Shown one piece after another: positions 1,829 through 60,279 of a DNA stretch of 64,000 bases. Location: the NCBI RefSeq assembly GCF_022682305.1, contig NZ_CP093528.1, positions 1,563,501 to 1,627,500 of the forward strand, given 5' to 3'. Both the position numbers and the translations under genes were made by a program. This DNA is from Shinella zoogloeoides (GTDB lineage Bacteria > Pseudomonadota > Alphaproteobacteria > Rhizobiales > Rhizobiaceae). Every line of letters begins with the position of its first letter. The stretch's first letter is position 1. The notes beneath the pieces are model-generated. The model was given only the letters and a program-made list of their open reading frames with translations. It searched no databases and had not been told where the DNA came from.

Positions 1829-3112
1829 ATGCTTGATATCAAATGGATCCGCGACAATGCCGCCGCCCTTGACGCCGCCCTCGCAAAGCGCGGCGCAAGC
1901 CCTCTCGCCGAGGCGCTGATCGATCTCGACGAGAAGCGCCGCGCCGTCATCCAGAAGGCGCAGGACATGCAGTCGCGTCGCAACGCCGCCTCCAAGGAGA
2001 TCGGCGCGGCGATGGCTGCCAAGAACGCCGAGCTTGCCGAAAAGCTGAAGGCCGAAGTCTCGGCCATCAAGGACCAGCTTCCGGCCGCCGAGGAAGAAGA
2101 GCGCCAGGTCACGGCCGAGCTGAATGACGCCCTGTCGCGCATCCCGAACATTCCACTTGATGACGTGCCGGTCGGCTCGGACGAGACCGGTAATGTCGAG
2201 AAGCTGAAATGGGGCAGCAAGCCCGGCTGGAGCCACAAGGCGCTGGAACACTATGAGATCGGCGAAGCGCTCGGCTACATGGATTTCGAGGCCGCCGCCA
2301 AGATCGCCGGCTCGCGCTTCACCGTGCTGAAGGGCCAGCTTGCCCGTCTCGAACGCGCGCTTGGCCAGTTCATGATCGACGTGCACACGCAGGATCACGG
2401 CTATACGGAAGTCCATGCGCCGCTTCTCGTGCGCGACGACGCCATGTTCGGCACCGGCCAGCTTCCGAAGTTCTCCGAGGACCTGTTCCGCACCACGGAC
2501 GGCCGTTGGCTGATTCCGACCGCAGAAGTCTCGCTCACCAATCTCGTGCGCGAGGAAATCCTGGAGCAGGAGAAGCTGCCGTTGCGCTTCACCGCGCTGA
2601 CGCCGTGCTTCCGCTCGGAGGCCGGCTCGTCGGGCCGCGACACGCGCGGCATGCTGCGCCAGCACCAGTTCATGAAGTGCGAGCTGGTCTCGATCACCGA
2701 TGCGGAAAGCGCCGTAGACGAGCACGAGCGCATGACGGCCTGCGCCGAGGAAATCCTGAAGCGCCTCGGCCTGCATTACCGCGTCATGACGCTTTGCACC
2801 GGCGACATGGGGTTTGGCGCGCGCAAGACCTACGATCTCGAAGTCTGGCTGCCCGGCCAGGATACGTTCCGCGAAATCTCGTCCTGCTCGGTCTGCGGCG
2901 ATTTCCAGGGCCGTCGCATGAATGCGCGCTATCGCGGCAAGGACGACAAGGCGACGAAGTTCGTGCACACGCTGAACGGCTCGGGCACGGCCGTCGGCCG
3001 CGCGCTCATCGCCGTCATGGAAAACTACCTCAACGAGGATGGCTCGATCACTGTGCCTGATGCGCTGCTGCCCTATATGAGCGGGCTGAAGAAGATCGAC
3101 AAGGCTGCTTGA
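1829..3112 (+). CDS. serS: seryl-tRNA synthetase
   Basis: This cytoplasmic enzyme charges tRNA-Ser (and tRNA-Sec where present). The 427 residues begin [10 protein letters not shown], and the first 100 or so residues form the tRNA-binding coiled-coil arm, rich in Glu, Lys and Ala. Class II motifs are visible: motif 2, [20 protein letters not shown], from about residue 260, and motif 3, [17 protein letters not shown], from about 384. An upstream in-frame start would add 13 atypical residues; the ATG at 1829 matches the family N terminus. The surE reading frame begins 11 bases after the stop codon. Confidence 0.97.
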
Positions 3113-3123
3113 GCGGGGACGGG

Positions 3124-3894
3124 ATGCGTATCCTTCTGACCAATGACGACGGTATCCACGCCGAGGGCCTTGCGGTCCTCGAGCGGATCGCCCGCGAACT
3201 GACCGACGACGTATGGATCGTCGCGCCGGAGACGGACCAGAGTGGCCTTGCCCATTCGCTGACGCTCTCCGAGCCGCTGCGCCTGCGCAAGATCGACGAC
3301 AAGCGTTTCGCGTTGCGCGGCACGCCGACGGATTGCGTCATCATGGGCGTGCGCGAAGTGCTCGACGAGAAGCCCGACCTTGTCCTGTCCGGCGTCAATG
3401 TCGGTGCGAACATGGCGGACGACGTGACCTATTCGGGCACCATCGCCGGCGCCATCGAGGGCACGCTGCAGGGCATCAAGTCCATGGCGCTGAGCCAGGC
3501 CTACAACCATGCCGGCGGCCGCGTCGTGCCGTGGGAGGTCGCCGAAGCTTTCGCGCCGAAACTGATCCGCCAGCTCATGGACGTCGAATTGCCCGACTGG
3601 ACCTTCTTCAACCTCAACTTCCCGAACTGCGCGCCGTCCGATCTCCAGGGCATCGAGGTGACGAGCCAGGGCAAGCTCGATTTCGGCCTGACGATCGAGG
3701 AACGCGCCGACGGCCGCGGCTTGCCCTATTACTGGCTGCGCTTCGGCGAGCGGAAGGGCGACTTCCGCGTGGGCACGGATATCCATGCGGTGAAGAACCA
3801 CAAGATTTCCGTGACGCCGCTGAAACTCGACCTCACGGACTACACGGTGCTCGACCGGGTGCAGCGGGCACTCAGCGCAAGGGGTGACGATTGA
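3124..3894 (+). CDS. surE: 5'/3'-nucleotidase SurE
   Basis: SurE is a metal-dependent nucleoside monophosphatase. The 256-residue protein starts [15 protein letters not shown], with the metal-binding pair Asp8-Asp9, and carries the family motifs SGLAHSLT and [24 protein letters not shown] five codons upstream is possible, but the ATG at 3124 has the canonical SurE N terminus and a GGGGACGGG stretch before it. Its stop overlaps the start of pcm. The surE-pcm-nlpD order matches the stationary-phase cluster known from gammaproteobacteria. Confidence 0.96.
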
Positions 3895-4547
3895 ACACGG
3901 GGCGGGTGATTGAGAAGGAAGGTTTTGCCGCGCTGGCTCTGCGTCTGCGCGGTGAGGGCATCAACAATCTCGACCTCCTCACGGCCGTCGAGCAGACGCC
4001 GCGCACGCTCTTCGTGCCGCCGCAGTTTGCCGGCGAAGCTTATTCAAGCCGCCTCCTGCCGCTCGATTGCGGTTCGTTCGTCGAAGGCATCGACCTTGCC
4101 GTCCGGCTGCTCAACCTGCTCAATCTCAAGGCCGGCCAGCGCGTGCTGGAGGTCGGCACCGGCAGCGGTTTCACCGCCGCCGTCATGGGCCGGCTCACCG
4201 AGCGCGTCCTGACCATCGACCGCTACCGCACGCTCGTCGCCAATGCGCAGCAGTCCATGGAGAAGGCCGGTATCCGCAACGTCATCGTGCGGCAGGCCGA
4301 CGGCAGCAACGGCATGCCGGGCGAGGGGACCTTCGACCGCATTCTGGTGACCGCCGCCTTTCCGGCCCTGCCGCGCTTCTTCGCCGAACAGCTCGTTTCC
4401 GGCGGCATGCTGATCGCGCCCGTCATGACCAGCGAAACCGAGTGTCGCATGCTCAAGCTCGTCAAGACCGGCAGCCGCTTCGACCGTGAGGACCTTTTCG
4501 CGGTCCCCTATCTGCCCATCGTGCCCCAGATGGCACAGGCCCTCTAG
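3891..4547 (+). CDS. pcm: protein-L-isoaspartate O-methyltransferase
   Basis: Pcm methylates isoaspartyl residues so that damaged proteins can be repaired. The 218 residues contain the SAM-binding motif [15 protein letters not shown] near residue 85 and the TPRTLFVP segment typical of the family. The start is TTG at 3891, within the surE stop region, with AAGGGG seven bases upstream; GTG at 3906 is an alternative that would drop five residues. A terminator-like hairpin follows the stop codon. Confidence 0.93.
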
Positions 4548-4698: not shown

Positions 4699-5328
4699 AT
4701 GTACGTTTCGAACAGGATTGCCAGCGGCTCGACAAGCGACAGCCTCGCGTATCTCGCGACACGGGCTGCCGGAAGCGTTGCCGAGGAGAACGCCGAGGCG
4801 GGATCGACGGCTCATCTGGCCGGCGGCAGCTACGACCCCTCCGCGCTGGTCAGTCTGTCCGTGGACGCGCTTCTGGTGCTGAGCGCCACGCGGGAAGAGA
4901 CGGCTTACGGTCAGCCCGCCCTTACCGAGGCAGAGCGGAACAATCTCGACACGACGGAACTGGAAAAGCGTGAACACGCCGCCTACGGCCGCTTCCTCGA
5001 CGAGGGAGATCGCAAGGCCTATCTGCGTGCCTATATCGAATATTTCGACAGCATGCCGGCGCAGGATCAGCGTAGTTCGCGCTATGCCGGCACGCGCGAA
5101 CCGGCCGTGGCAGCGCTTCGCGCCATTGCCTATAACGAAAGCGCCCTCGACATGACGGCACCGGATGCCGCGCTGGAGAATGTCTCTGAGCCTGATGACG
5201 GCAGGTCTGCACGCCGGGCAACGCCGATCGCCGCAATCTTCCAGCCGAGTGCCGGCGATTTCGAGAACGCCGCCCGCTTCGGCGGCCGGATCTCGCGCGC
5301 CGACAGCATGTACGCGACGGGCTTCTGA
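4699..5328 (+). CDS. hypothetical protein between pcm and nlpD
   Basis: I do not recognise this 209-residue protein. It has no signal peptide or membrane segment, a low-complexity Ala/Ser/Gly start, a charged central region with EAERNNLDTTELEKREHAAY (roughly residues 76-95) that may be helical, and an acidic-to-neutral C terminus. The ATG at 4699 is chosen because GGAGAGGG lies directly upstream; ATG 4687 would place that ribosome-binding site inside the gene. It sits where only short spacing separates pcm and nlpD in other bacteria and follows the large palindrome at 4615-4670. Confidence 0.7.
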   Translation: MYVSNRIASGSTSDSLAYLATRAAGSVAEENAEAGSTAHLAGGSYDPSALVSLSVDALLVLSATREETAYGQPALTEAERNNLDTTELEKREHAAYGRFLDEGDRKAYLRAYIEYFDSMPAQDQRSSRYAGTREPAVAALRAIAYNESALDMTAPDAALENVSEPDDGRSARRATPIAAIFQPSAGDFENAARFGGRISRADSMYATGF

Positions 5329-12914: not shown

Positions 12915-14324
12915 TCAGCGCCCGAGCCAGCGGGCGCAGTCTTCCAGCGCCCGCGCGGCGGTCGCGTGCTTCTTGGCGAGCGCCTTGTCCTTGCCGCGAA
13001 AGCGCTTCACGCCCTCCGGCTTCGTCACCGTGCCCGGTTCCAGTGGGGGGAACAGGCCGAAATTGACATTCATCGGCTGGAAGGAACGCTTGCCCGGCTC
13101 GTCGTCGGAAACGATATGGCCGCCGGTGATGTGGTTCAGCAGCGCGCCGAAGGCGGTGGTCTCGGGCGGCAGCGACGGCGTTTCGCCGCGCCGCTCGGCA
13201 GCGGCGAAACGGCCGGCCAGAAGACCGATGCTGGCGCTTTCGACATAGCCCTCGCAGCCGGTGATCTGCCCGGCGAAACGCAGGCCCGGCCGGCCCTTGA
13301 GCGTCAGCGAGCGGTCGAGCAGGGTTGGCGAGTTGATATAGGTATTGCGGTGGAGGCCGCCGAGGCGGGCGAATTCCGCATTCTCGAGGCCGGGGATGAG
13401 GCGGAAGATCTCCGCCTGCGCGCCGTATTTCAGCTTCGTCTGGAAGCCGACCATGTTGTAGAGCGTGCCGAGCGCATTGTCCTGCCGGAGCTGGACGACC
13501 GCATAGGGCTTGACCGTCGGGTTATGCGCGTTGGTGAGGCCCATGGGCTTCATCGGGCCGTGGCGCAGCGTCTCGCGGCCGCGCTCGGCCATCACCTCGA
13601 TCGGCAGGCACCCGTCGAAATAGGGCGTGCCTTCCCATTCCTTGAACCCGGTCGTGTCGCCCGCGATCAGCGCGTCGATGAAGGCGTTGTACTGCGCCTC
13701 GTCCATCGGGCAGTTGATGTAATCCTTGCCCGTGCCGCCGGGGCCGACCTTGTCGTAGCGCGACTGATACCAGCAGATATCCATGTCGATGCTCTGCGTG
13801 TGGACGATCGGCGCGATGGCGTCGAAGAAGGCGAGCGAATCGGCGCCGGTGCGTGCCTGGATCGCTTCGGCAAGCGAGGGGGCGGTGAGGGGGCCGGTGG
13901 CGATGATCGCCTGATCCCAGTCCTCCGGCGGCAGGCCCGTCACTTCCTCGCGCTGGATGGTGATCAGCGGATGGCTTTCCAGCGCGGCGGTGACGGCGAT
14001 GGAGAAGCCGTCGCGGTCGACGGCGAGCGCGCCGCCGGCAGGCACCTGGTTGGCGTCGGCCGAGCGCATGATCAGCGACCCGGCAAGCCGCATCTCCGCA
14101 TGCAGCACGCCGACCGCGTTGCTGGTGGCGTCGTCCGAGCGGAAGGAGTTGGAGCAGACGAGTTCGGCAAGGCCGTCCGTCTTGTGGGCATCCGTGCCGC
14201 GCACGCCGCGCATTTCATGCAGGACGACGGGAACGCCGGCTTCGGCGATCTGCCAGGCTGCTTCTGAACCGGCAAGGCCGCCGCCGATGACGTGGATGGG
14301 GCTGAGGGAGGAGGTCTTTGTCAT
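12915..14324 (-). CDS. trmFO: methylenetetrahydrofolate-tRNA-(uracil-5-)-methyltransferase TrmFO
   Basis: TrmFO uses folate and FAD to methylate U54 in the T loop of tRNAs. The 469 residues begin with an FAD-binding [11 protein letters not shown] motif at about residue 13, followed by the family segments [33 protein letters not shown] and [19 protein letters not shown]. An in-frame start 12 codons upstream is less likely, because the ATG at 14324 puts the nucleotide motif at the usual distance. It converges with the His/Cys-cluster gene. Confidence 0.95.
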
Positions 14325-14395
14325 GGGCGGTTCGTTACCATGGCGGCCGGCGCATTCCAAGGAAAAGCGCTCCGCGCCTCTTCATGGTCCCGGAA

Positions 14396-14679: not shown

Positions 14680-14714
14680 TATATAGGCGATAGCCTTGTC
14701 AATGTGCAGTGCAA
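14680..14714 (-). promoter_or_regulatory. promoter of DUF1127 gene 1 with TTGCACTGCA element
   Basis: On the minus strand the element TTGCACTGCA (14705-14714) overlaps a CTGCAC -35-like hexamer, which is followed 17 bases later by CTATAT. This resembles the rhizobial sigma-70 consensus (CTTGAC-N17-CTATAT) with a regulatory element over the -35. Confidence 0.5.
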
Positions 14715-14903
14715 AGAGAATGGAGCTGCTATGCATTTGTGCAATAAGACGCCCGGCGATGATGCAGATGCATCACATGCAGTCGCAACAGGCTGAAAAA
14801 CAGGCGTTTTCAGCTGGATAGCCATATGTTCTGCCGAAGTTTCAGGCTGCTCCATCTTGTCGCATATGATTGTTTGCGACATTGTGCGCCGCAAAAAGAC
14901 GCG

Positions 14904-14940
14904 CAAACGAAAACGCCCTCCGGCGGGAACCGAAGGACGT
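14904..14940 (-). terminator. intrinsic terminator after the second DUF1127 gene
   Basis: On the minus strand CGTCCTTCGG pairs with CCGGAGGGCG (two G-U pairs) and is followed by TTTTCGTTT. Confidence 0.65.
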
Positions 14941-14971
14941 TCGAATTGGGATCCGGAAGGATCTGGTCGGC

Positions 14972-15115
14972 TTAGTTGGAAGCCTTGCGGGCGATATACG
15001 GGATATCGCTGCGGCCGATGCCGAGGTCGCGAAGTTCACGGTCCGTCATGCGGCCGAGTTCGCTGACGGTCTGACGGTACTTGCGCCAGTTGTTGAAAGA
15101 GCGTGCCAGGTTCAT
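14972..15115 (-). CDS. DUF1127 small protein
   Basis: This second 47-residue DUF1127 protein, MNLARSFNNWRKYRQTVSEL..., has an Arg/Lys-rich first half and the RMTDRELRDLGIGRSDI motif. The ATG at 15115 follows AGGGGTAAAGAC; longer in-frame versions would add unrelated residues. It lies downstream, on the same strand, of two tandem sRNA genes and has its own candidate promoter between 15189 and 15207. Confidence 0.9.
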   Translation of the reverse strand: MNLARSFNNWRKYRQTVSELGRMTDRELRDLGIGRSDIPYIARKASN

Positions 15116-15188: not shown

Positions 15189-15207
15189 AATATACGCTGC
15201 AGTGCAA
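15189..15207 (-). promoter_or_regulatory. TTGCACTGCA element and -10 of DUF1127 gene 2
   Basis: On the minus strand TTGCACTGCA (15198-15207) is followed four bases later by TATATT (15189-15194), a good -10. The element therefore lies in the spacer rather than over the -35, unlike the other two copies. Confidence 0.45.
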
Positions 15208-15238
15208 AAATGAACAGCGCTGGAATGGCACGGCACCT

Positions 15239-15290
15239 ATGCGTAATTCGCATGTCAAGCGGAAATTTTGGCAAGAATCTGGCCAAAATT
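15239..15290. repeat. two inverted repeats upstream of DUF1127 gene 2
   Basis: ATGCG-TAATT-CGCAT (15239-15253) is an operator-like palindrome. Eleven bases further, AATTTTGGC (15264-15272) and GCCAAAATT (15282-15290) form a 9 bp stem with a nine-base loop. They lie between sRNA copy A and the DUF1127 promoter; their role is unknown. Confidence 0.5.
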
Positions 15291-15346: not shown

Positions 15347-15478
15347 AAAAGCGAACGCCCGCCGGGGGAGGAAATCCGGCGGGCGTTGCTGATATCGATT
15401 GGCAGCTTGGGAGGAGGAGGAGGAGGGGCTGCCAATCCTGTTCGGGGAACGCTGGGAGGAGGAGTGCGTCGCCCGATC
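15347..15478 (-). ncRNA. alpha-r14 (NfeR1-like) sRNA, copy A
   Basis: Read on the minus strand this is three successive hairpins whose loops carry the anti-Shine-Dalgarno motif. Hairpin 1 (stem GACGC/GCGTT) has loop ACTCCTCCTCCCA. Hairpin 2 has a perfect 10 bp stem, GATTGGCAGC/GCTGCCAATC, and an expanded loop with five CCT repeats. Hairpin 3 is a terminator, with stem AACGCCCGCCGG/CCGGCGGGCGTT, loop ATTTCCTCCC and then CGCTTTT. Architecture and length match the rhizobial alpha-r14 family, also described as cuckoo RNAs. The exact 5' end is estimated. Confidence 0.85.
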
Positions 15479-15605
15479 GATGGCTGTCCTGTAGCGCTGG
15501 CCGCCGACGCACGCCAGCGTCCGGTCGGAATGGCACCCATGCGTCGTCCGCATATGTGGGCCTGGTTGCCAAGCGGATGAAAAATATTGGAATTGGCGCC
15601 TGGGG

Positions 15606-15730
15606 AAAACAATAACGCCCGCTGGGGGAGGAGGTCCAGCGGGCGTCATATTGGTGATTGGCAACTGGGAGGAGGAGTGTTGCCAATCGTATCGGAGGGA
15701 CGCTGGGAGGAGGAGTGCGTCGCTCCGAAT
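15606..15730 (-). ncRNA. alpha-r14 (NfeR1-like) sRNA, copy B
   Basis: This has the same three-hairpin design on the minus strand. Hairpin 1 is GGAG-C-GACGC/GCGTC-C-CTCC with loop ACTCCTCCTCCCA. Hairpin 2 is GATTGGCAAC/GTTGCCAATC (15656-15688) with the same loop. The terminator stem is ACGCCCGCTG/CAGCGGGCGT (15615-15646) with loop GACCTCCTCCCC, followed by TATTGTTTT. Each loop could pair with GGAGG ribosome-binding sites. If the -10 at 15762-15767 is used, the transcript starts near 15755. Confidence 0.88.
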
Positions 15731-15761
15731 TCCGGTGGATCATCTCTGATCCGATGTCTGC

Positions 15762-15795
15762 AGTATAGCCGCGGCCCCGATTTTGTGCAGTGCAA
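15762..15795 (-). promoter_or_regulatory. promoter of sRNA copy B with TTGCACTGCA element
   Basis: On the minus strand TTGCACTGCA (15786-15795) overlaps CTGCAC, which lies 17 bases upstream of TATACT (15762-15767). The layout is almost the same as at DUF1127 gene 1. Confidence 0.55.
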
Positions 15796-16047
15796 TATGG
15801 GAATGGATGATATGCGCCCCTTGCATGCCCTGAACGGGAAGGCCATTCGGCTCCGTTATTGCCAAATCTGCCATGGATTTCTTTATTCTCCGTTAATCCT
15901 GATCGGTCTTGGCGGCAGTTTTGCGCATATTTCGGTGAAGACATGCCGATTTCGCGATTTTTGCCGAGATTGCGAATTTCCTGTGCCCCTATATCGTCCG
16001 TGTTGACAGGGCCGGAGTCGGTCTGTGCGAATGTGGAGCGGGAACGG

Positions 16048-17965: not shown

Positions 17966-18142
17966 GAGCCACCGGACACGGAAACGGAGGTTTCCGCGCC
18001 GTGTGGAGCATGAGAGCGCCATTTTGCTTGCCAAAAGGCCATCGAATTCAGTAAAGCCACAGCCGGCAAATGGACCGGCGGGGTGCTCGCCATAACCGGA
18101 AGGCCGGTTTGAGCACCGCCAACTCGAAATGAAGGTTTGAAC

Positions 18143-19618
18143 ATGCAGGTTATCGAAACGCTCGCTGAAGGGCTGAAGCGCGAAATCAAGGTCGTCATCC
18201 CGGCCAAGGACATGGAAGCTCAGATGAACGAGCGTCTTGAAGACGTGAAGGGCCGTGTCCGCATCAACGGCTTCCGTCCGGGCAAGGTGCCGTTCGCACA
18301 TCTCAAGAAGATGTACGGCAAGTCCGTCATGGCCGAACTCGTCAACGAAATCGTCCGCGACCGTCCGTCCGCGATTCTCTCCGAGCGCGGCGAAAAGTCC
18401 GCCACGCAGCCGGAAGTCGGCATGACCGAAGACCAGGCCGAAGCGGAAAAGATCCTCGCCGGCGAGGCAGATTTCGAATTCACCCTGTCTTACGAAGTCA
18501 TTCCGGCCATCGCGCTGAAGGACAATTCCGGCATCGCCGTCACGCGCGAAGTCGTTGACGTCGACGCCAAGGAAGTCGACGACCAGATCCTGAAGATCGC
18601 CGAAAGCGCCCGTTCCTACGAGACGAAGAAGGGCAAGGCCGCCGACGGCGACCGCGTTACCATCGACTATCTCGGCAAGGTCGACGGCGTCGCCTTCGAC
18701 GGCGGCAAGGACGAAGACGCAGAACTCGTCCTCGGCTCCAACCGCTTCATCCCGGGCTTCGAAGAGCAGCTCGTCGGCCTGAAGGCTGGCGACGAGAAGG
18801 TCATCACCGTTACCTTCCCGGCTGACTACCCGGCCGCAAACCTTGCCGGCAAGGAAGCCACCTTCGACATCAACGTCAAGGAAGTCGCTGCCGCTGCCGA
18901 CATCGAGATCAACGACGACCTCGCTTCCAAGCTCGGCCTCGAATCGGCCGACAAGCTGCGCGAAATCGTCCGCGGCCAGATCGAAAGCCAGTACGGCTCG
19001 GTCACCCGCCAGAAGGTCAAGCGTCAGATCCTCGACCAGCTCGACGAGATGTACAAGTTCGACACGCCTTCGCGCCTGGTCGACGCCGAGTTCGAAAACA
19101 TCTGGCGTCAGATCAACACGGACCTCGCACAGTCGGGCAAGACCTTCGCTGACGAAGACACGACCGAAGAAGCCGCTCGCGAAGAATACCGCAAGCTGGC
19201 CGAACGCCGCGTTCGCCTCGGCCTCGTTCTCTCAGAAATCGGCGAAAAGGCCGGCGTCCAGGTAACGGACGAAGAGATGCAGCAGTCGCTCTTCCAGCAG
19301 CTCCGCCAGTTCCCGGGCCAGGAAAAGCAGATCCTCGAATACTTCCAGAAGACCCCGGGCGCAGCCGCTTCGCTCCGCGCACCGATCTTCGAAGAGAAGG
19401 TCGTCGATCACCTGCTCGGCGAGATCAAGGTAACGGACAAGTCCGTTTCCAAGGACGAGCTGATGGCTGACGACGAAGAAGGCTCCGACAAGGACGCCAA
19501 GAAGGCCGCGCCGAAGAAGAAGGCTGCCGCCAAGGCCGAAGCTGCGGAAGGCGAAGATGCCGCTCCGAAGAAGAAGGCCCCGGCCAAGAAGAAGGCCGCT
19601 GAAGGCGACGCCGAGTAA
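18143..19618 (+). CDS. tig: trigger factor with Lys/Ala-rich C-terminal tail
   Basis: Trigger factor is the ribosome-bound chaperone and prolyl isomerase. The 491 residues include the ribosome-binding signature GFRPGKVPF near residue 45, an FKBP-type isomerase domain (about 155-245) and a long helical C-terminal region. Unlike E. coli (432 residues) it ends in about 50 residues of Lys, Ala, Glu and Pro with [24 protein letters not shown] repeats, reminiscent of the TatB tail in this window. The ATG at 18143 follows GAAGG; a TTG two codons earlier is less likely. Confidence 0.97.
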
Positions 19619-30698: not shown

Positions 30699-30773
30699 TG
30701 GCACGCCCTAGGGGAGTCGAACCCCTCTTTCCAGAATGAAAATCTGGCGTCCTAACCGATAGACGAAGGGCGC
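30699..30773 (-). tRNA. tRNA-Glu (anticodon TTC), copy 1
   Basis: On the minus strand GCGCCCT pairs with AGGGCGT (one G-T). The loop TTTTCAT between CCAGA and TCTGG gives anticodon TTC. The T arm GAGGGGTTCGACTCCCCT and an encoded CCA are present. The sequence is identical to the next two copies. Confidence 0.97.
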
Positions 30774-30786
30774 GTGCGGTGGGCGT

Positions 30787-30815
30787 TTTCTAGTCGGGAG
30801 CGCGGATTCGCGCAA
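30787..30815 (-). promoter_or_regulatory. promoter of tRNA-Glu copy 1
   Basis: On the minus strand TTGCGC (30810-30815) and TAGAAA (30787-30792) are 17 bases apart. The 13 bases from the -10 to the tRNA are the same in all three copies. Confidence 0.7.
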
Positions 30816-30913
30816 GTCCCTAAATGCAGGAATTTTCAGTTTTTTTCGCTGGCGCAAGCATATGGCTGCGCGCGTTGCGGAGGCACGGTTCAAGGGTTTG
30901 CGAAGGGAGAGGG

Positions 30914-30988
30914 TGGCACGCCCTAGGGGAGTCGAACCCCTCTTTCCAGAATGAAAATCTGGCGTCCTAACCGATAGACGAAGGGCGC
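30914..30988 (-). tRNA. tRNA-Glu (anticodon TTC), copy 2
   Basis: Identical over all 75 bases to the copies at 30699 and 31120, with encoded CCA. Confidence 0.97.
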
Positions 30989-31001
30989 GTGCGGTGGGCG
31001 T

Positions 31002-31030
31002 CTTCTAGTCGGGACGCGGCGGATGCGCAA
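31002..31030 (-). promoter_or_regulatory. promoter of tRNA-Glu copy 2
   Basis: On the minus strand TTGCGC (31025-31030) and TAGAAG (31002-31007) are 17 bases apart. Confidence 0.7.
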
Positions 31031-31119
31031 GACGGAAAATCATGTTCCGCGCAACTTTTTCAACAGCGCGCACGGATGGTTCAGACAGATAAAACGGCTT
31101 GTTTCAGGGGAGGGAACCG

Positions 31120-31194
31120 TGGCACGCCCTAGGGGAGTCGAACCCCTCTTTCCAGAATGAAAATCTGGCGTCCTAACCGATAGACGAAGGGCGC
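31120..31194 (-). tRNA. tRNA-Glu (anticodon TTC), copy 3
   Basis: Identical to the other two copies, with encoded CCA. It is the first of the three in the direction of transcription. Confidence 0.97.
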
Positions 31195-44438: not shown

Positions 44439-45779
<1,341 letters not shown>

Positions 45780-45808
45780 TTGGAGAAACAGTTTCTCCGA
45801 AACGACGA

Positions 45809-45838
45809 AACCCGCATCTGACGATGCGGGTTTTGTTT
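45809..45838 (+). terminator. intrinsic terminator after eno
   Basis: AACCCGCATC and GATGCGGGTT form a stem around TGAC, followed by TTGTTTTTT. A second small hairpin (GGAGAAAC/GTTTCTCC) lies at 45782-45798. Confidence 0.9.
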
Positions 45839-46594: not shown

Positions 46595-46625
46595 TTGCGA
46601 AGAATATAAGCCATGCATTTATAGC
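46595..46625 (+). promoter_or_regulatory. candidate pdhA promoter
   Basis: TTGCGA (46595-46600) and TATAGC (46620-46625) are 19 bases apart in the AT-rich gap after ftsB. The spacing is longer than ideal. Confidence 0.35.
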
Positions 46626-46687
46626 ATTGCTGCGCTGGGCTTTCTCCCCTATGGTTTTCGCCAAGAGGCAAACATAGGGAGGTACGA

Positions 46688-52648: not shown

Positions 52649-52655
52649 ACGTGCT

Positions 52656-52685
52656 AAAGCCCGCCTCCACATGAGGCGGGCTTTC
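52656..52685 (+). terminator. intrinsic terminator after lpdA
   Basis: AAAGCCCGCCTC and GAGGCGGGCTTT form a perfect stem around a five-base loop. The T-run is short. Confidence 0.8.
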
Positions 52686-52736
52686 GAATTTCGGTCCGCA
52701 AGACGGGCGCAGAAGCCCGCTAGGAAGTGGATAGAC

Positions 52737-53714
52737 ATGGTCACCATTCTCGACCGCACCAATCCTGACCCGAACGTTCCGCGCGTTCGCCACCCGGAAA
52801 AGGCCCATCGGCCGGATACCGAGGTGCTGCGCAAGCCGGAATGGATCCGCGTCAAGGCGCCGGTCTCAAAAGCCTATCAGGAAACGCGCGATCTCGTGCG
52901 CAGCCACAAGCTGGTTACGGTCTGCGAGGAAGCGGGCTGCCCGAATATCGGCGAGTGCTGGGACAAGAAGCACGCGACCTTCATGATCATGGGCGAGATC
53001 TGTACCCGCGCCTGTGCCTTCTGCAACGTGGCGACGGGCAAGCCCAATGCGCTCGACATGGAGGAGCCGGAAAACGTCGCCAAGGCCGTCAAGCAGATGG
53101 GCCTGTCGCATGTCGTCATCACCTCGGTTGACCGCGACGATCTGGAAGACGGCGGCGCCGAGCATTTTGAAAAGGTGATCTGGGCGATCCGCGCCGCGTC
53201 GCCCGCAACCACCATCGAGATTCTGACGCCGGACTTCCTGAAGAAGCCGGGCGCTCTGGAGCGCGTCGTCGCCGCAAAGCCCGACGTCTTCAACCACAAT
53301 ATGGAAACCGTGCCGGGCAACTATCTCACGGTTCGCCCCGGCGCGCGCTACTTCCACTCCGTCCGCCTCCTGCAGCGCGTGAAGGAACTGGACCCGACCA
53401 TGTTCACCAAGTCGGGCATCATGGTGGGCCTCGGCGAGGAGCGCAACGAAGTGCTCCAGCTTATGGACGACCTGCGCACCGCCGACGTCGACTTCCTGAC
53501 CATCGGCCAGTACCTTCAGCCGACGCGCAAGCACCACAAGGTCGATCGTTTCGTGACGCCGGACGAGTTCAAGTCCTACGAGACCGTCGCCTATACCAAG
53601 GGTTTCCTGATGGTCTCCTCCAGCCCGCTGACGCGCTCCTCGCACCATGCCGGCGACGACTTCGCCCGCCTGCGCGCCGCCCGCGAGAAAAAACTTCTCG
53701 CCGCCGCGGAATAG
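52737..53714 (+). CDS. lipA: lipoyl synthase
   Basis: LipA inserts two sulfurs into octanoyl groups on E2 and related proteins. The 325 residues carry both iron-sulfur sites: Cys63, Cys68 and Cys74 in [13 protein letters not shown], and the radical-SAM Cys89, Cys93 and Cys96 in CTRACAFC. The C-terminal [10 protein letters not shown] contains the conserved Ser. The ATG at 52737 gives [10 protein letters not shown] with AGGAA upstream. It supplies cofactor for the adjacent pdh complex. Confidence 0.97.
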
Positions 53715-56654: not shown

Positions 56655-57680
56655 ATGATCTGCTTGAAAGATGAGCATTTGGCGACCCCCGATCTCTCAG
56701 CGCCGCTGGCGATAGGCAACCAGACCCTGCGCAACCGCGTGGTTCTGGCGCCGATGTCCGGCGTTACGGACCTGCCGTTCCGCGATCTCGCCTGGCGTTT
56801 TGGCGCCGGCCTCGTCGTGACGGAGATGGTGGCGAGCCGGGAACTGGCGCTGAACGCCCGCGAAAGCTGGTCGCGCATCCGCAATTGCGGCATCCAGCCG
56901 CATATGGTGCAGCTTGCCGGCCGCGAGGCGCACTGGATGGCGGAAGCGGCGCGGATCGCCGAAGGCGAGGGCGCCGATATCGTCGATATCAATATGGGCT
57001 GCCCGGCCAAGAAGGTGATCGGCGGCTATTCCGGCTCCGCCCTGATGCGCGATCCGGACCACGCGCTCGGCCTGATCGAGGCGACCGTCAAGGCCGTGAA
57101 GGTGCCGGTGACGGTGAAGATGCGGCTCGGCTGGGATCATGATTCGCTGAATGCCCCGCATATCGCCTCGCGCGCCGAGGCGGCGGGCGCGGCGATGATC
57201 ACCGTGCACGGGCGCACCCGCATGCAATTCTACGAGGGTAGAGCCGATTGGGACGCGATCCGCGCGGTGCGTGATGTGCTCTCCATCCCGCTCGTCGCCA
57301 ATGGCGATGTCGATACGGCCGCGGACGCGCTGGAAATCCTGCGCCGTTCGGGCGCCGACGCCGTGATGGTCGGCCGTTCGGCGCAGGGCCGCCCCTGGCA
57401 TCCGGCTGTTCTCGCCGGCGCTTGCGCGCATCCCTCGCCGGAAGAGGTCGCGGCGCTTGCCGTGGAGCACTATCGCATGATGCTTGATTTCTACGGCGTC
57501 GAAGGTGGCCTTCGCCATGCGCGAAAACATGTCGGCTGGTATCTGGAGCGCTTCGCGCCGGCCCTGACGGGACCTGCCAAGGCCGAGATCATGACGGCGC
57601 GCGACACCGATTTCGTCGCCGGCCGGCTGGCGGAGGCCCTGCTGGGCGGCGCGGCGCAGACCCTGGGAGACGCGGCATGA
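56655..57680 (+). CDS. dusB: tRNA-dihydrouridine synthase (DusB/NifR3)
   Basis: This flavoenzyme reduces uridines in the tRNA D loop. The 341 residues contain [28 protein letters not shown], the catalytic Cys near residue 116 in [20 protein letters not shown] and [11 protein letters not shown]. In rhizobia it is known as nifR3 and heads the ntrBC operon, as here, where its stop overlaps ntrB in ATGA. The ATG at 56655 has a weak ribosome-binding site; TTG 56679 is an alternative. Confidence 0.94.
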
Positions 57681-58825
57681 CCGGAAAGCCGGCTGACCCG
57701 AATGCGGCCAAGGCCCCGGAACTGGCGCTTGCCGTGCTCAACGCCATCCAGAACCCCGTGATCCTCGTCGATGCCGACGGGCTGATCGCCTTCGCCAACT
57801 GGGAGGCGGAATCCTTCTTCGGCGCGAGCGCCAGCCATCTCGCGCGCCACAAGGTCTCGACCTTCATTCCCTTCGGCAGCCCGCTCCTGACGCTGATCGA
57901 TCAGGTGCGCGAGCGCCGGGCGCCGGTCAACGAATACCGCGTCGATCTAAGTTCGCCGCGGCTCGGCGCGGAAAAGCTTGTCGATATCTATGTCGCGCCG
58001 GCGACGACGGAGCCGGGATCGGTGGTGGTCGTCATCCAGGAACGTTCGATGGCGGACAAGATCGATCGGCAATTGACCCATCGCACGGCCGCGCGTTCCG
58101 TGACGGGCCTTGCTTCCATGCTGGCGCACGAGATCAAGAACCCGCTCTCCGGCATTCGCGGTGCGGCGCAGCTTCTGGAAACCTCCGTCATCGACGAGGA
58201 CCGGGCGCTGACGCGCCTCATCTGCGACGAGACGGACCGTATCGTTTCGCTGGTCGATCGCATGGAGGTGTTCTCCGACGAGCGGCCGGTCGATCGTGTG
58301 CCGATCAACATCCATGCCGTGCTCGACCATGTGAAGGCTGTGGCCAAGGCCGGCTTCGGACGCAAGATCAGGATTACCGAGCTTTACGACCCGTCGCTGC
58401 CGCCGGTCTATGCCAATCGTGACCAGCTCGTGCAGGTCTTCCTCAACCTCATCAAGAACGCCTCTGAGGCCATCGGCGACCGGCCGGACGGCGAGATCCA
58501 GCTCACGACGGCCTACCGTCCCGGCATCCGCCTCTCGGTCGCCGGAACGCGTGAGAAGATATCGCTGCCGCTGGAATTCTGCGTGCACGACAACGGCCCC
58601 GGCGTGCCGGGCGATCTGCTTCCCCATCTCTTCGATCCCTTCATCACCACGAAGACCAATGGCTCCGGCCTCGGCCTCGCGCTGGTCGCCAAGATCATCG
58701 GCGGCCATGGCGGCATCGTGGAATGCGACAGCCAGGGATCGCGGACCACCTTCCGCGTGCTGATGCCGGCCTCCCGCGGCGTCAGCGAAGACGACGACAT
58801 TTCCAAGATCAAAGGACATGATTGA
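57677..58825 (+). CDS. ntrB: nitrogen regulation sensor kinase NtrB
   Basis: NtrB controls NtrC phosphorylation according to nitrogen status through PII proteins. The 382 residues have a PAS domain (about 15-125, [20 protein letters not shown]), the phosphoacceptor His151 in [12 protein letters not shown], and HATPase boxes [19 protein letters not shown] and GSGLGLALV. No membrane segment is present, as expected for a cytoplasmic sensor. Its stop overlaps the ntrC start by one base. Confidence 0.96.
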
Positions 58826-60279
58826 TGACAGGCGCCACAGTCCTCGTTGCCGATGACGATGCCGCGATCCGCACGGTGCTCAACCAGGCCTTGAGCCGCG
58901 CGGGATACGACGTGCGGATCACCTCCAACGCGGCGACCCTGTGGCGCTGGATCGCCGCCGGCGAGGGCGACATCGTCGTGACCGACGTGGTCATGCCCGA
59001 CGAGAACGCCTTCGACCTCCTGCCGCGCATCAAGAAGGCCCGGCCTGACCTGCCGGTGCTCGTCATGAGCGCGCAGAACACCTTCATGACGGCGATCAAG
59101 GCCTCGGAGAAGGGCGCCTACGACTATCTGCCCAAACCCTTCGACCTCACGGAATTGATCGCTATCATCGGTCGAGCCTTGTCCGAGCCGAAGCGCAAGC
59201 CCGCGCATTTCGACGACGACACGCAGGACGGCATGCCGCTCGTCGGCCGCTCGGCGGCGATGCAGGAAATCTACCGCGTGCTCGCCCGCCTGATGCAGAC
59301 GGACCTGACGCTGATGATCACCGGCGAATCGGGCACCGGCAAGGAACTCGTCGCCCGCGCGCTGCATGACTACGGCAAGCGCCGCAACGGCCCCTTCGTG
59401 GCGATCAACATGGCGGCGATCCCGCGCGACCTCATCGAATCGGAACTTTTCGGCCACGAGAAGGGCGCCTTCACCGGTGCGCAGAACCGCTCGACCGGTC
59501 GCTTCGAGCAGGCCGAGGGCGGTACGCTCTTCCTCGACGAGATCGGCGACATGCCGATGGACGCGCAGACCCGGCTTCTGCGCGTGCTCCAGCAGGGCGA
59601 ATACACCACCGTGGGCGGGCGCACGCCCATCCGCACGGATGTGCGCATCGTCGCGGCGACCAACAAGGACTTGAAGCAATCGATCAACCAGGGCCTCTTC
59701 CGTGAGGACCTCTATTACCGCCTGAACGTCGTGCCGCTGCGCCTGCCGCCGCTGCGCGATCGGGCGGAGGACATTCCCGATCTTGTGCGCCATTTCGTGC
59801 AGCAGGCGGAGAAGGAAGGGCTGGACGCCAAGCGCTTCGACCAGGAGGCGCTGGAGCTGATGAAGGCGCACCCCTGGCCGGGCAATGTGCGCGAACTGGA
59901 AAACGTCGTGCGCCGCCTGACTGCGCTTTATCCGCAGGATGTCATCACCCGTGAGATCATCGAGGCGGAGCTTCGCGCCGATATCCCCGACAGCCCCATC
60001 GAAAAGACCGTGACGCGCAGTGGTTCGCTGTCCATCTCGCAGGCCGTCGAGGAGAACATGCGCCAGTATTTCGCGAGCTTCGGCGACAGCCTTCCGCCTG
60101 CGGGCCTCTACGACCGCGTGCTCGCCGAGATGGAGTATCCGCTGATTCTCGCCGCCCTGACCGCCACGCGCGGCAACCAGATCAAGGCGGCCGACTTGCT
60201 CGGCCTCAACCGCAATACGCTGCGCAAGAAAATTCGCGAGCTTGGCGTGTCTGTGTACAGAAGTTCCCGCTCTGCTTGA
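58825..60279 (+). CDS. ntrC: nitrogen regulation response regulator NtrC
   Basis: NtrC activates sigma-54 promoters under nitrogen limitation. The 484 residues comprise a receiver (Asp54 in [10 protein letters not shown]), an AAA+ domain with Walker A GESGTGKE (167-174) and the sigma-54 contact loop GAFTGA (214-219), and a Fis-type HTH at the end ([19 protein letters not shown]). ATG 58825 has AAGGA at the right distance; a TTG one codon earlier is possible. Confidence 0.97.

Follow-up and report, generated by a model that had tools for sequence, protein, structure and literature searches.

Why do small RNAs (sRNAs) with loops complementary to Shine-Dalgarno sequences lie beside genes for DUF1127 proteins, and why do they precede these genes at one locus and follow them at another? 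The CcsR RNAs, for which the neighborhood is known, are hairpin RNAs with CCUCCUCCC loops. The question is raised by a 64,000-nucleotide stretch of Shinella zoogloeoides DNA (the window), in which a sequence-only reading had noticed two tandem minus-strand sRNAs of the alpha-r14/NfeR1 type, at about 15347–15730, upstream of DUF1127 genes. In the CIN1 locus of Rhodobacter and other bacteria, CcsR1–4 (cuckoo RNAs) are linked to a DUF1127 gene as in the window, according to PMC10253847. There, the DUF1127 gene leads and shares a transcript with the sRNAs, whereas in the window the sRNAs come first and have boxes of their own. Our analysis adds three things to a known locus: the history of its gene order, the identification of the second copy with NfeR1, and a shared promoter geometry that points to the regulator LsrB/VtlR.

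Structure and family of the two RNAs

Both RNAs are members of the ar14 family, which is itself already known, at a known locus. In an Rfam covariance-model search, each spanned positions 1–123 of model RF02344 and scored well over the gathering score of 58.8 bits (Table 1), in agreement with the proposed alpha-r14/NfeR1 assignment. They stand in tandem on the minus strand, at 15733–15610 and 15482–15350. When one genome per genus was sampled, an ar14 match was present in 60 of 61 genomes, in 56 of them above the cut-off.

Each copy folds into the three hairpins first described, with energies of −58.4 (copy 1) and −59.5 kcal/mol (copy 2) and strongly negative z-scores; none of 200 dinucleotide shuffles folded as well as either copy. 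The stems quoted in the sequence-only reading, GATTGGCAAC/GTTGCCAATC and GATTGGCAGC/GCTGCCAATC, are both there in the window sequence, and its claim of compensatory change was borne out by 48 ar14 copies, in which 26 of 28 pairs vary on both sides yet stay paired. The paired share of cells was 92.9% in this set and 74.9% in shuffles, and it did not exceed 43.0% when partners were slid by one to three columns; two-sided changes with pairing kept were counted in 261 cells, the shuffled mean being 75.9. We conclude from the folding z-scores and the covariation that the three-hairpin reading is right; the third hairpin is the presumed terminator of each copy. Model A1, built from the 48 family copies, gave the window copies 131 and 95 bits and its next best match 21 bits, scores that are no independent test of membership because both window copies are among the 48. 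Model R1 had two weak matches elsewhere in the window, at 45747–45838 (+, 21.3 bits) and 52652–52750 (−, 19.3 bits), which may be chance pyrimidine-rich hairpins.

A run complementary to ribosome-binding sites had been expected in every loop. This holds for copy 1, all three loops of which carry the full CCUCCUCCC motif (core UCCUCCC), and for loops 1 and 2 of copy 2; loop 3 of copy 2 is TTTCCTCCCCC, not a complete CCTCCTCCC, and retains the core only (UUUCCUCCCCC). The second loop of copy 2 is enlarged to five CCT units. Among the matches listed, a CCT run of five or more occurs in 2 of 149 copies, and the UCCUCCC core is present three times in 138 of the 149. Two copies outside the window, at C1:592038 (L155) and C3:48848 (L156), have an extra hairpin-like stretch with a CCTCCTCCC loop just 5′ of the modeled three and, judged by their sequence, look like four-hairpin family members.

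Table 1. Features of the cluster, its flanking genes and a candidate target, in window coordinates
Feature	Coordinates	Strand	Remarks
ar14 sRNA copy 1	15610..15733	−	RF02344 123.6 bits; fold z −9.4; three hairpins, three CCTCCTCCC-type loops
ar14 sRNA copy 2	15350..15482	−	RF02344 85.5 bits; fold z −7.4
Copy 1 LsrB-type box, TGCA-N6-GCAT	15812..15825	−	−10 TATACT 58 bp on, 15762–15767
TTGCACTGCA element, copy 1 promoter	15786..15795	−	further copies 15198–15207, 14705–14714
Copy 2 LsrB/VtlR-type box, TGC-N7-GCAT-N3-TG-N3-T	15530..15552	−	70 nt before the sRNA; expected −10 is CTACAG
DUF1127 gene 1, 47 aa	14972..15115	−	PF06568 61.5 bits
DUF1127 gene 1 LsrB/VtlR-type box	15230..15252	−	−10 TATATT 58 bp on, 15189–15194
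DUF1127 gene 2, 47 aa	14480..14623	−	PF06568 55.6 bits
DUF1127 gene 2 box, TGC-N6-GCAT	14731..14743	−	TATATA 58 bp on, 14680–14685
trmFO, downstream flank (synteny, tree)	12915..14324	−	NCBIfam NF003739/TIGR00137
tig (trigger factor), upstream flank (synteny)	18137..19618	+	Pfam Trigger_N/Trigger_C
ntrB, candidate target	57677..58825	+	CUGGGAG before ATG complementary to CUCCCAG of copy 1 loops 1 and 2

Correspondence with NfeR1 and history of the gene order

The locus is syntenic with that of Sinorhizobium meliloti. The window order on the minus strand is sRNA, sRNA, DUF1127, DUF1127 and then trmFO, with a DUF2157 gene, a GDYXXLXY gene and tig 5′ of the sRNAs on the opposite strand; in S. meliloti Ak57 (CP090106.1, record L245) tig is followed by ar14 copies at 3210–3332 and 3488–3610, DUF1127 genes at 4220 and 4670, and trmFO at 4906. 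The closest named TrmFO among 80 kept loci (96% identity) is that of Shinella yambaruensis. In Shinella sp. PSBB067 (L244), the two ar14 copies are split by roughly 1 kb of DNA (2029–3060) that includes an IS4/5-type transposase ORF. Elsewhere in the window, three successive tRNA genes with equal scores lie about 210 bp apart at 30702–31194 (−).

S. meliloti NfeR1 (Smr14C2, SmelC397; RF02344) has three hairpins with CCUCCUCCC loops, like the window RNAs. Its promoter is described as having CTATAT as −10 and, numbered from the start of a 123-nt RNA, an LsrB box (TGCA-N6-GCAT) at −72 to −60 and an NtrC site (TGC-N11-GCA) at −116 to −101 (PMC10746234); PMC8844928 gives its length as 115 nt. Six copies exist in S. 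meliloti, only one of them reliably detected by Northern blot, as reported in PMC7143759. The second copy of the Ak57 pair has the LsrB box at −70, the NtrC site at −114 and CTATAT at −12. The first has an LsrB-like box and a −10 about 100 nt ahead of the hairpins, from which a transcript would exceed the reported 123 nt by roughly 90 nt; TGC-N11-GCA was not found within 300 nt upstream of it. The published marks fit the second copy best, and therefore window copy 2, second of its pair between tig and DUF1127–DUF1127–trmFO and with an LsrB-type box at −70, is the positional counterpart of NfeR1. Copy 1, first chosen for its higher score, was rejected in this role because the S. meliloti promoter marks point to the second copy.

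We call copy 2 a positional counterpart and not a proven NfeR1 orthologue because the NtrC site is missing: TGC-N11-GCA was not found in the 300 nt upstream of either window copy. Among ten second copies, the window included, five have the site at −113 to −115, two at −124 and −174, and three have none. Copy 2 further differs from S. meliloti NfeR1 in its enlarged loop, in a poorer −10 (CTACAG versus CTATAT), and in one box mismatch (TGCG for TGCA in TGCA-N6-GCAT); owing to the last two, it may be weak here. A rival view, possible though to us somewhat doubtful, is that copy 1 alone works in this strain, copy 2 being in decay with its role passed to copy 1. Such decay would account for an RF02344 score 38 bits below that of copy 1, the altered second and third loops, the degraded −10 and the absent NtrC site, and copy 1 does combine an exact TGCA-N6-GCAT box with TATACT. 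However, all three stems of copy 2 fold, its extended box at −70 is an exact match to the LsrB/VtlR consensus, and the second copy of S. yambaruensis (L159) retains CTATAT at −12. The reading that we prefer, and consider likely, is that the pair are tandem trans-acting ar14 sRNAs in an LsrB/VtlR-linked cluster with DUF1127 genes, and that their sRNA-first order is derived.

That the sRNAs precede DUF1127, as originally noted, is true of this locus, where two same-strand DUF1127 genes lie behind them. As a difference of kind from Rhodobacter it did not survive, both orders being present in the same genome: DUF1127 at C1:591680–591784 (+) is followed by ar14 at C1:592038–592162 (+). The CIN1 arrangement is absent from the window locus and is matched for order only at C1:591680–592162. 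A search of the genome gave five ar14, six DUF1127 and seven suhB-type RNA genes in total.

To place this in the family, 149 ar14 copies among the matches listed were assigned to 118 loci in 55 genera (one contig-end copy was left out), and DUF1127 was sought within about 2 kb on each side. Same-strand DUF1127 genes were near 61 of the 118 loci, upstream only at 44, downstream only at 11 and mixed at 6, with 1 locus having DUF1127 on the other strand and 56 none; these linkage counts are lower bounds, because contig ends shorten seven loci. At least one DUF1127-linked locus was present in 50 of the 55 genomes (again among the matches listed); chance linkage is well under 1% by arithmetic from six DUF1127 genes in 5.1 Mb. 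In 31 of 48 upstream-DUF1127 loci among these matches, a gap of 5 to 25 nt separates the end of the DUF1127 domain from the sRNA start, which is the CIN1 arrangement, so named by Reinkensmeier and Giegerich (PMC10253847).

Gene orders at 82 trmFO loci (80 named ones plus the plasmid-collection records L244 and L245) were read with model R1, of which 87 of 90 matches were used and the three weakest left out, and a DUF1127 profile. The TrmFO tree also has 82 rows, namely the 80 loci, L245 and the window, without L244. They comprise 21 sRNA-first rows, 27 with DUF1127 first and then sRNA, 21 with DUF1127 only and 11 with neither; two sRNA-only rows (L199, L221) were not grouped. Twenty of the 21 sRNA-first rows fall in one well supported core Rhizobiaceae set of 29 rows (100/96), which contains no DUF1127-first row with sRNA, its other nine rows having DUF1127 only (five) or neither (four). 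The exception, Pararhizobium haloflavum (L190), takes no resolved place on the tree. Because of the nine core rows and L190, the sRNA-first label needs seven changes, of which five are forced by well supported branches. Since the tree has weak deep branches and an arbitrary root, the direction of change depends on how widely DUF1127-first rows are distributed: they extend over Phyllobacteriaceae, Brucellaceae, Aurantimonadaceae, Stappiaceae and Ahrensiaceae. DUF1127-first as the older order is supported by intermediates between tig and trmFO: DUF1127–sRNA–DUF1127–DUF1127 (L060), sRNA–DUF1127–sRNA–DUF1127–DUF1127 (L082) and sRNA–DUF1127–sRNA–DUF1127 (L076). We infer that the sRNA-first order derives from an older CIN1-type arrangement with DUF1127 directly before the sRNA.

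Several further observations concern these arrays. In Aurantimonas sp. (L202), a single DUF1127 gene is followed by a run of six ar14-like copies (3584–4390). No R1 match at E 0.01 was found at the trmFO loci of L178 and L182 (Agrobacterium) and L229 and L234 (Bartonella); L178 retains two DUF1127 genes, and the other three have neither sRNA nor DUF1127. An ar14 copy is kept behind DUF1127 gene 1 in L190 (65.6 bits) and, at low scores, in L167 (31.3 bits) and L168 (34.5 bits). A vestige of such a copy in the window was rejected, since R1 finds nothing at 14880–14990 with E up to 1; this stretch folds as a terminator-like hairpin. The uORF-controlled duf1127_1 of S. meliloti was likewise dropped as a relative of the window leader, as PMC12218461 equates it with a large Agrobacterium DUF1127 gene and names neither NfeR1 nor trigger factor in its main text.

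Promoter geometry and the candidate regulator LsrB/VtlR

In three of the four window units, copy 1 and DUF1127 genes 1 and 2, TGC-N6/7-GCAT stands 58 bp before the −10. This geometry was counted at the 82 loci and the window, for those units whose free upstream stretch exceeded 100 nt. A box followed by a −10 at 57–60 bp was found in 11 of 32 core ar14 units and 27 of 44 core DUF1127 units, in 20 of 56 DUF1127 units elsewhere and in neither of two other sRNA units; shuffled means were 0.02 or less per set, although the −10 pattern and distance range were picked after the alignments had been viewed and the shuffles preserve base composition only. When the box alone, TGCR-N5/6-GCAT, was sought 150–300 nt upstream, the core set had it at the first sRNA in 7 of 22 cases and at the second in 7 of 10; for DUF1127 genes the counts were 21 of 22 (first) and 18 of 22 (second). 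It is patchy at inner DUF1127 genes (5 of 14 in DUF1127-first arrays, compared with 22 of 27 leading genes) and at DUF1127-only loci (12 of 21). Over all these sets the means in shuffled sequence were 0.25 to 1.65. When 300 nt and the looser TGC-N7-GCAT were allowed, the count rose to 17 of 22 for the first sRNA and stayed at 7 of 10 for the second. A further element, TTGCACTSCA, occurs three times in the window, always in cluster promoters (chance mean 0.18; 0 of 100 shuffles reach three). Over 22 core loci it is present at 12 first sRNAs, 19 second DUF1127 genes and one first DUF1127 gene (that of the window); at second sRNAs it was found in 0 of 10.

Published work suggests a protein that reads such boxes. 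LsrB binds the NfeR1 promoter in S. meliloti (PMC10746234), and LsrB/VtlR is reported to bind abcR1 at the consensus GCAT-N3-TG-N3-T, AbcR promoters being bound in both S. meliloti and A. tumefaciens (PMC8844928, PMC7486931). AbcR1/AbcR2 (ar15) resemble the window pair as tandem anti-Shine-Dalgarno sRNAs with an LsrB/VtlR box; they differ in belonging to another Rfam family (RF02345) and in binding Hfq, which NfeR1 is reported not to do (PMC8844928, PMC10746234). In A. tumefaciens, VtlR binds the promoter of and directly activates atu1667, described as an orthologue of small proteins activated by Brucella VtlR (PMC7486931), and in Brucella VtlR activates three DUF1127 genes and AbcR2 (PMC12595884). 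Of the open-access papers found to print both LsrB and DUF1127, all but the Brucella VtlR paper have one of the two names in the reference list alone. Searches of the same literature found no paper joining NfeR1 and DUF1127 under those names as printed, and none joining any two of ar14, DUF1127 and trmFO, the latter search missing Greek-letter spellings of alpha-r14.

Of the four window units, copy 2 and DUF1127 gene 1 match the published consensus; the other two, copy 1 and DUF1127 gene 2, are without its TG. An extended box, the consensus plus a TGC arm, was defined after the window promoters had been seen and has 15 exact matches in the genome, versus 3 for the reversed pattern. Five of the 15 lie at most 300 nt upstream, on the same strand, of the 18 ar14 (5), DUF1127 (6) and suhB-type RNA (7) genes, where 0.008 are expected. 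These sites precede window DUF1127 gene 1, window copy 2, the DUF1127 gene at C1:591680, an AbcR pair at C1:2508667 and a suhB-type RNA at C1:3134505; only those at C1:591680 and C1:3134505 are independent, because two shaped the pattern and abcR1 is the type site of the published consensus. The other ten matches are near none of the 18 features; they include a third exact match in the window (46614–46636, +), away from the sRNA cluster. The AbcR pair itself (ar15, RF02345; 103 and 87 bits) stands behind a thioredoxin-reductase-like gene and a LysR-type gene, the same order as the trxB and vtlR reported beside AbcR (PMC7486931). From these sequence features, the two sRNAs and the two DUF1127 genes are probably under shared LsrB/VtlR control.

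It is unlikely, in our estimation, that the sRNAs and DUF1127 genes are adjacent by shared ancestry only, with different regulators, and that the box is read by a factor other than LsrB. This would suit the absence of the published TG from two of the four window units and the shortness of the box core, of which the whole window holds 14 TGCR-N5/6-GCAT matches, 5 of them inside the cluster. Yet the 58–59 bp spacing from box to −10 is constant in many genera, the box co-occurs with AbcR-type promoters in this genome, and binding of LsrB to PnfeR1 (PMC10746234) and of VtlR to the atu1667 promoter (PMC7486931) has been reported. Shared control by LsrB/VtlR accordingly remains our preferred reading of the boxes.

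Mode of action, targets and meaning

Under this reading, active LsrB would switch on a separate sigma-70-type promoter for each of the two minus-strand sRNAs, with the third hairpin terminating the transcript. The fixed-geometry activator box shared by the four cluster promoters would most likely be read by the LysR regulator LsrB/VtlR. Single-stranded CCUCCUCCC loops would then pair with the Shine-Dalgarno regions of targets and block translation, as for S. meliloti NfeR1.

The dusB-ntrB-ntrC operon, both target and repressor of NfeR1 in S. meliloti, is located in the same window (56655–60279, +), about 41 kb from the sRNAs. The ntrB gene was named by rank and place, its score being 184.5 bits against an NCBIfam model cut-off of 240. 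In S. meliloti NfeR1 silences ntrB and a loop-mutant NfeR1 loses this silencing (PMC10746234); transporter mRNAs are described as further targets at the Shine-Dalgarno step (PMC8844928). In the window, pairing energy places ntrB no higher than 11th among 42 crude start regions, so the prediction is weak and ntrB is a candidate target by analogy only. Without an NtrC site, no more than half of the S. meliloti double-negative loop would be present here. A target list based on perfect GGGAGGAGG before ATG was discarded (five genome matches versus five for the reversed pattern), one of its matches being antisense to the trmFO start. The first trmFO codons carry ACCTCCTCCC on the minus strand (14306–14325, antisense +), the same motif as in the sRNA loops. 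Self-targeting within the cluster found no support either, DUF1127-1, DUF1127-2, trmFO, tig, dusB and ntrC ranking 21 to 41 of 42.

The loops might instead bind a protein, such as the arginine-rich DUF1127 product in the manner of CcaF1, making the RNA a protein sponge and not mainly an antisense regulator. The same-strand linkage seen at 61 of the 118 ar14 loci among the matches listed fits such a role, and Rhodobacter CcaF1 is reported to bind RNA and to promote CcsR RNA maturation (PMC10253847). However, the loss of ntrB silencing with the loop mutant (PMC10746234) speaks for antisense action, and for Agrobacterium and Salmonella DUF1127 proteins, protein partners have been reported instead (PMC12501420), which together lead us to regard the sponge as improbable. 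Finally, mechanical ORFs overlap the sRNA region, but that the features are chance or coding sequence and not RNA genes is scarcely conceivable given the covariance-model scores, the covariation and the presence of ar14 in all but one of the sampled genomes.

For trans-acting sRNAs in an LsrB/VtlR-linked cluster, we tentatively propose a history that is plausible but falls a little short of probable. NfeR1-type sRNAs may have begun as 3′-UTR hairpins of DUF1127 mRNAs (CIN1) under an LsrB/VtlR-type promoter and have been freed near the base of the core Rhizobiaceae, when the leading DUF1127 gene was lost and a box of their own was gained or retained. On this view, the entire sRNA–DUF1127 array from tig to trmFO would form a compact regulon, with a single redox-linked LysR activator driving the joint production of RBS-blocking sRNAs and of microproteins that bind RNA or kinases.

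NfeR1 adjusts nitrogen signaling as well as nodulation in S. meliloti, and the widespread DUF1127 proteins are a puzzle. Should the array prove to be a single LsrB/VtlR regulon, there would be a regulatory reason, testable in one strain, for the neighborhood of sRNAs and DUF1127 genes that has been noted for so long. The change of order would be a concrete case, with living intermediates, of how a 3′-UTR sRNA may become an independent gene.
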